From the NCBI RefSeq assembly GCF_016724845.1, contig NZ_CP068082.1, positions 1,240,001 to 1,304,000 of the forward strand: DNA of 64,000 bases, in the 5' to 3' direction. Shown piece by piece: positions 49,095-50,869 of the stretch. Origin of the DNA: Sphingobacterium spiritivorum (GTDB lineage Bacteria; Bacteroidota; Bacteroidia; Sphingobacteriales; Sphingobacteriaceae). The translations under genes were made by a program, and so were the position numbers. Numbering within the stretch: position 1 is the stretch's first letter; every line of letters starts with the position of its first letter. Below the pieces are notes generated by a model. It worked only from the letters and a program-made list of their open reading frames with translations, was not told where the DNA came from and ran no database searches.

Positions 49095-49138
49095 TAAAAG
49101 TATCTTTTGATATTCGTTATAACGGTAACATTTGTTAC
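49095..49138 (-). promoter_or_regulatory. Crp/Fnr-type class II promoter of the tauE-cstB-like unit
   Basis: On the minus strand, the dyad GTAAC-N4-GTTAC (49125-49138, read on plus as GTAACATTTGTTAC) is centred 36.5 nt upstream of the last base of TACTTTTA (49095-49102), about -41 relative to the predicted start. No TTTG -33 box is present. A CGTTATAACG palindrome abuts the dyad at 49115-49124. The spacing is identical to that before the YeeE gene. Confidence 0.7.
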
Positions 49139-49186
49139 AGCAATGCAAGTTTTGAATCAGAAGAATCAGTGCCCTGTAGTTGCTGA

Positions 49187-49816
49187 CTACAGTAAGTCTA
49201 TTGTACTTCGGTTGAGCCGGACTTTACCTTCATTCTCATACACTTTCAGGATGCGGGAGACGACAACACGTGAGGTATTCAGTGCATCTGCTATCTCCTG
49301 ATGCGATTTATTAATGGAACGAGTGTTGTTTATCTTCGTAATTTCTTCCAGATAATGCAGAATCCGCACATCCATCTTATGAAAAGCGAGCTGATCTATT
49401 GCTCCTAACATTTCTTCCATGCGCCTGTTGTAACTGGTAAACACAAAATTGCGCCAGCTGCTATATTTCGCCAGCCATTCCTCCATCTTGCTGACGGGTA
49501 TCATAGCCACTAATGCATCTGTCTCAGCTACAGCTTTGATTTCACTTTTCTTATCGCCCAGACAACAGGCTAATGTCATGGCACACGTATCTCCCTTTTC
49601 AAGAAAATAGAGTAACAATTCTCCTTCCCACGGATCTTCACGCATAATGCGTATAGCACCTTCGACCAGAAGCGGCATTACTTTGATATATTGTCCTGCA
49701 TCGATAAGTATGTCAGCTTTCTTAAAGGAAAGAAAACGGGCTACTTCCTCAATTTCCGTTATCAGACGAGGCTCAAAAACAGTTCCGTAAGCGACTTGTA
49801 ATGCTGCGGTATACAT
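49187..49816 (-). CDS. Crp/Fnr family transcriptional regulator of the sulfur island
   Basis: A 209-residue regulator. The N-terminal cyclic-nucleotide-binding-like beta roll covers about 15-110 and a long dimer helix about 115-145. The C-terminal winged helix carries the recognition region SHQEIADALNTSRVVVSRIL (about 168-187). Three cysteines, Cys78, Cys84 and Cys85 (DTCAMTLACCLG), sit in the sensor domain, and there is no N-terminal FNR-type Cys cluster. A thiol or persulfide sensor is thus possible, but this is inference. It lies 14 bp after the smaller YeeE gene and probably activates both flanking promoters through GTrAC-N4-GTTAC sites. Confidence 0.88.
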   Translation of the reverse strand: MYTAALQVAYGTVFEPRLITEIEEVARFLSFKKADILIDAGQYIKVMPLLVEGAIRIMREDPWEGELLLYFLEKGDTCAMTLACCLGDKKSEIKAVAETDALVAMIPVSKMEEWLAKYSSWRNFVFTSYNRRMEEMLGAIDQLAFHKMDVRILHYLEEITKINNTRSINKSHQEIADALNTSRVVVSRILKVYENEGKVRLNRSTIDLL

Positions 49817-49830
49817 AAATAAGCACGTTA

Positions 49831-50244
49831 TTAATGAGGAAGCTTATGACGGATCAGGCCATACAACCATGTTCCTGCAATAGCTCCAAGGATAACAATC
49901 AAAATGGGGAAAACTCCTGCTCCGACCAATACAAACATTGGCAATGGACAAGCTCCGGCCAATGCCCAGCCCAGTCCGAAAATAATCCCTCCGAAAAGGT
50001 AACGGCTGAAGGACTTTTCTTTTGGGGTAATATGTATCTGATGCCCGTCCATGTCTTTGATTTTACGACGTTTAATCCATTGAATGGCTCCTATTCCGAT
50101 AATCAGTGCAGAACCTATAAAGCCATACATATGAAAAGACTGAAAATTAAACATTTCATATATTCTGAACCATGAAGCCGCTTCAGCTTTATACATGGTC
50201 AATCCTAAAATCAATCCGATAAGGATGAATACTAATTTTCTCAT
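49831..50244 (-). CDS. YeeE/YedE half-protein, C-terminal type (DUF6691-like)
   Basis: A 137-residue membrane protein starting at the ATG at 50244. A start at 50283 would overlap the upstream gene. Four hydrophobic helices are seen. ISRYLFGGIIFGLGWALAGACPLP places a conserved Cys in the GACP turn, as in thiosulfate-transporting YeeE (TsuA), where such cysteines relay the substrate. The protein is about half of a full YeeE and pairs with the preceding gene (13 bp apart), resembling PmpA/PmpB pairs of sulfur-detoxification operons. Confidence 0.85.
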   Translation of the reverse strand: MRKLVFILIGLILGLTMYKAEAASWFRIYEMFNFQSFHMYGFIGSALIIGIGAIQWIKRRKIKDMDGHQIHITPKEKSFSRYLFGGIIFGLGWALAGACPLPMFVLVGAGVFPILIVILGAIAGTWLYGLIRHKLPH

Positions 50245-50257
50245 GCTGTCTGTTTTT

Positions 50258-50809
50258 TTAAAATAATACCGGAAAAATAACATGAACCATCAGCAAGCCG
50301 CCGATAAAGAATCCAACTACAGCAATCAGCGAAGGTAATTGTAAATCGCTCAAGCCAGAGATCGCATGTCCCGAAGTACAGCCTCCTGCATAGCGCGAAC
50401 CAAAACCGACTAAAAGACCACCTGCGAGCAATAATCCCAATGCTTTCAAGTCAAAAGTATCATACAGCTCTGTCGGGGCATATCCCTTACCGGCACTCTG
50501 AAACCCGAGTTGATGAAGCTTAGTAATGGTATCGGGGTGAATAGCCGGAATCTGTGCCTCGTCTGATAAAATATGCGCGCCGACATAACCTCCTAACACA
50601 GCCCCGATTAATATCAGTAAGTTCCAGCGCTGTGCTTTCCAGTCAAACTTGAAAAAATCAGACGTCTTACCAGCTCCACATGCCGCACATATGGTTCTGA
50701 AATTAGAGGAAACACCAAAATTCTTACCTGCAAGCAGAAGTGCAATCATACAAAAAGCGACTAAGGGACCTCCTATATACCATGGCCAGGGTTCAAATAT
50801 CCATTCCAT
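50258..50809 (-). CDS. YeeE/YedE half-protein, N-terminal type
   Basis: A 183-residue membrane protein with about five helices. GSRYAGGCTSGHAISGLS carries the conserved Cys of the YeeE transport path, and FRTICAACGAGKTSDFF provides two further cysteines near residues 40-43. It is the first gene of the leftward unit yeeE-yeeE-crp and is preceded by the second Crp/Fnr-type promoter. Uptake or export of thiosulfate or another sulfane-sulfur compound is inferred from the TsuA family. Confidence 0.87.
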   Translation of the reverse strand: MEWIFEPWPWYIGGPLVAFCMIALLLAGKNFGVSSNFRTICAACGAGKTSDFFKFDWKAQRWNLLILIGAVLGGYVGAHILSDEAQIPAIHPDTITKLHQLGFQSAGKGYAPTELYDTFDLKALGLLLAGGLLVGFGSRYAGGCTSGHAISGLSDLQLPSLIAVVGFFIGGLLMVHVIFPVLF

Positions 50810-50825
50810 ATAATTTATTTTTATA

Positions 50826-50869
50826 CAAAGATCAGCTTTTATATTTCCCCGTTTGGTGACTTATGTTAC
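50826..50869 (-). promoter_or_regulatory. Crp/Fnr-type class II promoter of the yeeE-yeeE-crp unit
   Basis: The dyad GTGAC-N4-GTTAC (50856-50869) is centred 36.5 nt upstream of the last base of a minus-strand -7 element GATCTTTG (50826-50833). No -33 TTTG is present. The leader to the ATG at 50809 would be about 12 nt. Confidence 0.7.

Follow-up and report, generated by a model that had tools for sequence, protein, structure and literature searches.

Escherichia coli class II CRP/FNR-dependent promoters have an operator centred at -41.5, and the cyanobacterial regulator NtcA, which controls nitrogen genes, has a site of the form GTA-N8-TAC at the same position. The bigR operon of Xylella and Agrobacterium contains tauE/yeeE. 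In the excerpts available of the work on this operon, a metallo-beta-lactamase/rhodanese enzyme and sulfur transporters are placed under a local regulator, BigR, which is an ArsR-type repressor (PMC5823870), and SoxR and sHdrR are described in the available part of a further paper as repressors over a comparable operon (PMC12423496). With respect to operator recognition, the accessible portion of Rodionov et al. 2005 (PMC1274295) ties position 181 of CRP to one base of the palindrome and explains the operator GTAACnnnnGTTAC of HcpR2, a regulator which controls hcp, by loss of Glu181. A search with the motif string returned only this one paper, the HcpR2 work, and the string was not found in the available parts of two Porphyromonas Crp/Fnr papers (PMC12040651 and PMC6955866). 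Among open-licence papers we found no earlier Crp/Fnr-type sulfur regulator in Bacteroidota and, for the class Bacteroidia, no described reactive-sulfur regulator. Both the operator motif, as published for HcpR2, and the class II position are already known for the superfamily. No earlier report was found in the open-licence literature of the sulfur regulon, of the promoter geometry relative to the Bacteroidota -7 box, or of the operator series with Val or Glu described below.

The window, by which we mean the whole 64,000-nucleotide stretch of Sphingobacterium spiritivorum DNA that was analysed, contains a sulfur island with a gene for a Crp/Fnr-type regulator lying between two near-identical dyads, each at the same distance from a promoter core. 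The features of this island are as follows.

46860..48248, minus strand: cstB-like gene for a metallo-beta-lactamase and rhodanese protein (Lactamase_B and two Rhodanese stretches)
48271..49068, minus strand: tauE, TauE/SafE family exporter (PF01925), first gene after P1
49095..49102, minus strand: -7-like element of P1, TACTTTTA, last base 36.5 nt from the dyad centre
49125..49138, minus strand: dyad of P1, the predicted tauE-cstB promoter, GTAACATTTGTTAC on the forward strand and GTAACAAATGTTAC along transcription
49187..49816, minus strand: crp, Crp/Fnr-type regulator of 209 aa (Pfam cNMP_binding and HTH_Crp_2 above cut-off)
49831..50283, minus strand: second yeeE/yedE-type protein (Sulf_transp/DUF6691)
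50258..50809, minus strand: yeeE/yedE-type sulfur transport protein, first half (Sulf_transp, PF04143), first gene after P2
50826..50833, minus strand: -7-like element of P2, GATCTTTG, last base 36.5 nt from the dyad centre
50856..50869, minus strand: dyad of P2, the predicted yeeE-yeeE-crp promoter, GTGACTTATGTTAC on the forward strand and GTAACATAAGTCAC along transcription

P2 precedes the genes yeeE-yeeE-crp, in which the two yeeE frames overlap and the second is followed by crp after 14 nt; P1 precedes tauE and, 22 nt beyond it, the cstB-like gene, whose product is likely a persulfide dioxygenase/sulfurtransferase. The initial annotation of this DNA had reported dyads at 49125-49138 and 50856-50869, with the centre of each lying 36.5 nt away from the final base of a -7 element. 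Both dyads are present, and this distance is exact at P1 and P2, with a gap of exactly 22 nt between the dyad and the -7-like octamer. TACTTTTA and GATCTTTG are each one base off TAnnTTTG. A TAnnTTTG-type box lies at -12 to -5 in the transcription start map of Flavobacterium psychrophilum, according to the available excerpts (PMC9723704), and on that basis the dyad centres of P1 and P2 would be at -41.5, the class II position. Transcription is accordingly predicted to start at about 49090, 22 nt before tauE, and at about 50821, 12 nt before the first yeeE gene. The predicted operator position is the same as in the class II promoters of E. coli, whereas the promoter core here is the Bacteroidota TAnnTTTG -7 box. 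We give a probability of about 0.8 to the reading that the dyads serve as operators in two promoters under class II activation, where, as we predict, the product of the crp gene encoded between them binds.

The regulator has the domain order of the Crp/Fnr superfamily, a cNMP-binding domain (PF00027, 33.7 bits; cut-off 27.5) followed by a Crp-type helix-turn-helix (PF13545, 31.9 bits; cut-off 27), and its structure model (pLDDT 88) matches CRP-type structures, with a TM score of 0.75 to 4ev0_D. CRP contacts cAMP through Glu72 and Arg82; these positions align by eye with Met80 and Lys90 of the regulator, so that the cAMP contacts are not kept, and the score against the cAMP-responsive CRP equivalog was 46.9 bits for a cut-off of 266. 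Regulators of the FNR Fe-S type bind their cluster through four cysteines, of which three lie close to the N-terminus, whereas the cysteines here are found only at positions 78, 84 and 85 and the Fe-S ligands are likewise not kept. The recognition helix, SRVVVSR, resembles that of NtcA, in which STRVTVTRLL aligns with TSRVVVSRIL of the regulator and which too has Val; the score against the NCBIfam NtcA model was nevertheless 27.3 for a cut-off of 244.95, and NtcA differs in responding to 2-oxoglutarate, as given in titles of PDB entries. The likeness to HcpR2 lies in the shared operator GTAACnnnnGTTAC, and the differences are that HcpR2 has mostly Pro at CRP position 181, where the present regulator has Val (or Glu among its relatives), and that the targets here are sulfur genes (compared with the available portion of PMC1274295). 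Cys78 was kept in all 145 regulators compared; Cys84 and Cys85 were each kept in 99/106 Val-type regulators, and in 25/39 and 7/39 Glu-type regulators, respectively. Conservation of Cys78 together with the gene context makes thiol-based sensing the likeliest mode, and the signal is probably reactive sulfur species, with the invariant Cys78 as candidate sensor.

Dyads were then counted in the loci of related regulators, taking the best 80 of 356 relatives from a contig scan (717,094 bases), which are mostly Flavobacterium and not independent of one another. In these 80 loci GTAACN4GTTAC occurred 72 times in 49 loci and its reversed form not at all, and the wider pattern GTRACN4GTYAC occurred 76 times in 52 loci, with three reversed matches. 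With spacers of 2, 3, 5, 6 and 8 between GTAAC and GTTAC there were 2, 0, 1, 0 and 0 sites. When no spacing was assumed, 72 of 151 oriented sites had a -7 element (at least 5 of 6 bases) at 36.5 nt, and 26 of these elements were perfect; the other distances listed, from 20.5 to 69.5 nt, gave 0 to 7 elements and in one instance 10. On the better strand of the 76 strict dyads, a TAnnTTTG-like element was found at 36.5 nt in 70, at 35.5 nt in three and not at all in three. Columns over those 70 sites showed T before the dyad in 52, an A/T-rich spacer and TAnnTTT(G/A), and the downstream ORFs started at a median of 21 nt past the -7 box. These 72 ORFs comprised 31 tauE, 23 cstB, 7 SQR pieces, 2 crp, 1 yeeE and 1 outer-membrane protein, with 7 unmatched to the queries.

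The initial annotation had named absence of the dyad from related promoters as the finding that would count against it. This test was run on the same best 80 of 356 loci, and a site was present in all 58 which hold tauE or cstB (49 with a strict dyad and 9 with a one-mismatch dyad). Of the 28 loci lacking a strict dyad, 15 had a one-mismatch dyad with the same spacing, scoring at least 20.2 and above every control on a matrix (PWM) built from the dyads of the related loci, with the 80 reversed loci as controls. Among the 22 loci without tauE or cstB, nine had a site; no site, strict or one-mismatch with matrix support, was found in the other 13, two of which hold divergent yeeE genes. A second locus set gave the same spacing of 36.5 nt in 39/44 dyads from 37 Glu loci and in 20/21 from 26 Val loci, with two and one matches, respectively, to the reversed pattern. 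Lack of a TTTG -33 box had also been pointed out for P1 and P2. This absence is real, and the box was found in 0/70 dyad promoters of the 80 loci, but TAnnTTTG elements that precede ORFs without a dyad in these loci had TTTG at spacers of 18-21 in just 9/164 cases, so the missing box is weak evidence and not diagnostic, and its use as proof of activator dependence was rejected. One contig filed as a Klebsiella pneumoniae MAG (L062) carried a Flavobacterium-like crp-tauE-cstB-trx cluster and is probably mis-binned.

The residue matching CRP Glu181 was Val in 106 and Glu in 39 of the 145 regulators. For comparison with the operator, sites were called with the third base of each half-site open to A or G, duplicates were removed and the window was left out. 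Sites were found in 70 Val loci (35 had none), where 109 sites had G in 5/218 half-sites, and in 25 Glu loci (14 had none), where 43 sites had G in 71/86 half-sites; before removal of duplicates the Glu figure was 79/100, and the reversed sequence gave 0 sites. Half-sites were thus GTAAC for Val regulators and mostly GTGAC for Glu regulators, in line with the known role of CRP position 181. The regulator tree needed five residue changes, three of them forced by supported branches, and held only three supported independent Val/Glu pairs, of which 2.9 on average went in the expected direction and 0 against it, a number with which a sign test cannot reach significance. This covariation with a residue of the recognition helix ties the dyads to this regulator subfamily and supports direct binding by it. 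With regard to the proposed motif GTrAC-N4-GTTAC, the dyad itself was upheld, but on the sequences compared the motif of the Val-type subfamily is GTAAC-N4-GTTAC, with T in front and an A/T-rich spacer. In the window G stood in 1/4 half-sites, and the GTGAC half in the yeeE promoter P2 is a tolerated deviation from the subfamily motif.

Within the host genome the same patterns carried little information. The dyad at no more than one mismatch matched the window 8 times for 3.89 expected, and 8 matches were reached in 5/100 shuffles. In the 5.28-Mb genome GTRACN4GTYAC had 10 sites as compared to 18 for the reversed control, so that the bare dyad by itself proves nothing and was rejected as a genome-wide regulon finder. 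The full pattern (dyad, N22 and TAnnTTTG) was matched with 0 mismatches at two sites, both in a second sulfur island, with one mismatch at the tauE promoter P1, and with two at the yeeE promoter P2 and at five other places. At up to three mismatches it had 51 matches for 105 in the control, which makes weak full-pattern sites of this genome unreadable, and these were rejected. Matrix scores were 31.7 for P1 and 19.2 for P2; the best control scores were 19.8, 16.7 and 13.6, and P2 falls below the single best of them. The promoter finding could not be accepted on the host genome alone, and its weight comes from the comparison with other genomes.

The second island (L013:1648-15845, within C1:2446001-2466000) lies beside mobilisation and coupling-protein genes. 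It holds tauE, an SQR-like gene, two cstB-like genes, genes for a rhodanese, a TPMT-like methyltransferase and a thioredoxin, and two yeeE genes, several of these being named from similarity read by eye. Its Crp/Fnr regulator (C1:2452337-2452918) has 29% identity to the window regulator, of which it is the sole other relative in the genome (E <= 0.001), and adjoins MobC, a MobA-type relaxase and a TraG-like coupling protein. One of the two perfect full patterns precedes the gene for this paralogous regulator, and the other precedes the second cstB-like gene. Degenerate full patterns with the same spacing were found upstream of tauE (two mismatches) and of the first cstB-like gene (three mismatches; below the matrix threshold of 8). 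As the second island has its own paralogue and perfect sites of apparently the same operator, each of the two regulators may also act at the promoters of the other. Its SQR-like gene (L013:7795-9055) is read in two overlapping frames of different phase, which may reflect a broken gene or an error in the sequence.

Across 296 genomes of the phylum the exact full promoter was found in 54 copies in 26 genomes, with 0 in reversed controls, and each of these 26 is a member of the class to which the window belongs (73/296 genomes, counted by eye). In the family (151 genomes) it was present in 25/35 genomes with a close regulator (E <= 2.1e-55) as compared to 4/116 others (Fisher p 1.3e-16, uncorrected for kinship). 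One-mismatch promoters matched 74/151 family genomes, a count that was not used because the reversed control also matches many genomes. Islands were also found on two Runella plasmids, pRUNSL04 of Runella slithyformis and one from Runella rosea, with tauE, two cstB-like, c-type cytochrome, DsrE, 5'-nucleotidase-like, porin and yeeE genes, and same-spacing sites stand before several of these, five and four of them scoring >17 while no reversed control scored >8. Plasmid Paks1 of Pontibacter akesuensis and pSLIN02 of Spirosoma linguale each encode a Glu regulator, with GTGACAACAGTCAC and GTAACATTTGTCAC, respectively, upstream of tauE. Within 9 kb, no site was found in a Persicobacter relative with Glu (L215). 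The regulator gene of pRUNSL04 is annotated in pieces (L212:10603-11060), and several sites of the usual spacing are kept on that plasmid; a Glu at position 184 of the Runella plasmid regulator was considered and not borne out, the remaining annotated piece reading CRKVISR.

That the dyads are chance matches without function has very little probability. The bare dyad is indeed not enriched over the host genome and both -7 elements are one base off consensus, but against this stand the conservation and spacing of the dyads in other genomes, where reversed controls are at or near zero. It is also improbable, though less so, that another Crp/Fnr protein acts at the dyads, for example an HcpR2-like regulator of nitrosative stress, and that the local crp product has other targets. 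In its favour, GTAACnnnnGTTAC is the published HcpR2 motif (available portion of PMC1274295). In two genomes of another family (L183/G382 and L184/G374), hcp (Prismane) and DUF2492 genes, targets of the HcpR2 type, are preceded by exact promoters with this geometry, so that operator and spacing are common to an HcpR2-like system. The host genome has 17 cNMP-binding matches. However, no Prismane/hcp match was found in the host genome, the RVVVSR helix occurs only in the two island regulators among the 12 of these 17 that were examined, and the operator changes together with the helix of whichever regulator the same locus encodes.

The alternative to which we allow most room, and which we still consider unlikely, keeps the same regulator and dyads and has the protein act as a repressor that blocks polymerase and is released on sulfur modification, in the manner of the ArsR-type BigR. 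Comparable operons elsewhere are under repressors, as noted above for BigR (PMC5823870) and SoxR/sHdrR (PMC12423496) from the excerpts at hand, and polymerase could be hindered by a dyad whose end lies some 22 nt upstream of the -7 box. The position of repressor sites usually varies. The spacing here is rigid (70/76 in the best 80 of 356 loci and 59/65 in the second set), and with a predicted centre at -41.5 it is what class II activation needs; that the -7 elements are often without a good -33 partner counts against a repressor only weakly. The bigR operon has an ArsR-type repressor, and this locus has a Crp/Fnr-type protein that is likely an activator.

With activation as the preferred reading, the regulator would bind the P1 and P2 dyads at about -41.5, where it would replace the -33 contact in recruiting RNA polymerase. 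The genes yeeE-yeeE-crp would be transcribed from P2, and tauE-cstB from P1. Since crp sits in the P2 unit, activation of both promoters by its product would raise the regulator's own level, a positive feedback, and uptake of thiosulfate or sulfane sulfur, oxidation of persulfide and export of sulfite would be induced together. The observation reported for this DNA is confirmed, and its interpretation is supported as far as sequence can take it. A wider reading is offered tentatively, and we hold it somewhat less probable than its opposite. This Bacteroidota Crp/Fnr subfamily would be a thiol-based activator responding to reactive sulfur, in which Cys78 is persulfidated and the dimer then binds GT(A/G)AC-N4-GT(T/C)AC at -41.5, with Val or Glu at the CRP-181 position setting the operator as a one-residue code. 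The role of ArsR-type repressors like BigR would be filled by activation with positive feedback, and conjugative elements and plasmids would carry the regulator and its promoters together, as a ready-made module for sulfide handling. For a sulfur regulon of the class Bacteroidia, the comparison yields an operator and a spacing that are sharp and open to test. It also offers a rule, readable from sequence, for promoters with the Bacteroidota -7 box that likely depend on an activator, and a natural set of operator changes that go with a single residue of the recognition helix. It makes the control of sulfide, thiosulfate and persulfide genes predictable from genome sequence, also for islands carried by plasmids or mobilisable elements.

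Further sites were seen outside the islands. In the host genome a two-mismatch site at C1:1426224-1426267 (L127) lies upstream of a cytochrome c assembly gene; it is similar to a one-mismatch site in a genome of the same genus (G112) and may be a further target or chance. Genes following sites in the family and the phylum also included those for a SulP permease, DUF983 and DUF6132 proteins, and TolC-type outer-membrane proteins. TolC-type outer-membrane efflux ORFs often follow exact promoters, as at L190 and L157, where the assignment was checked with Pfam, and similar ORFs were seen at L192, L193, L195, L197, L198, L200 and L206.
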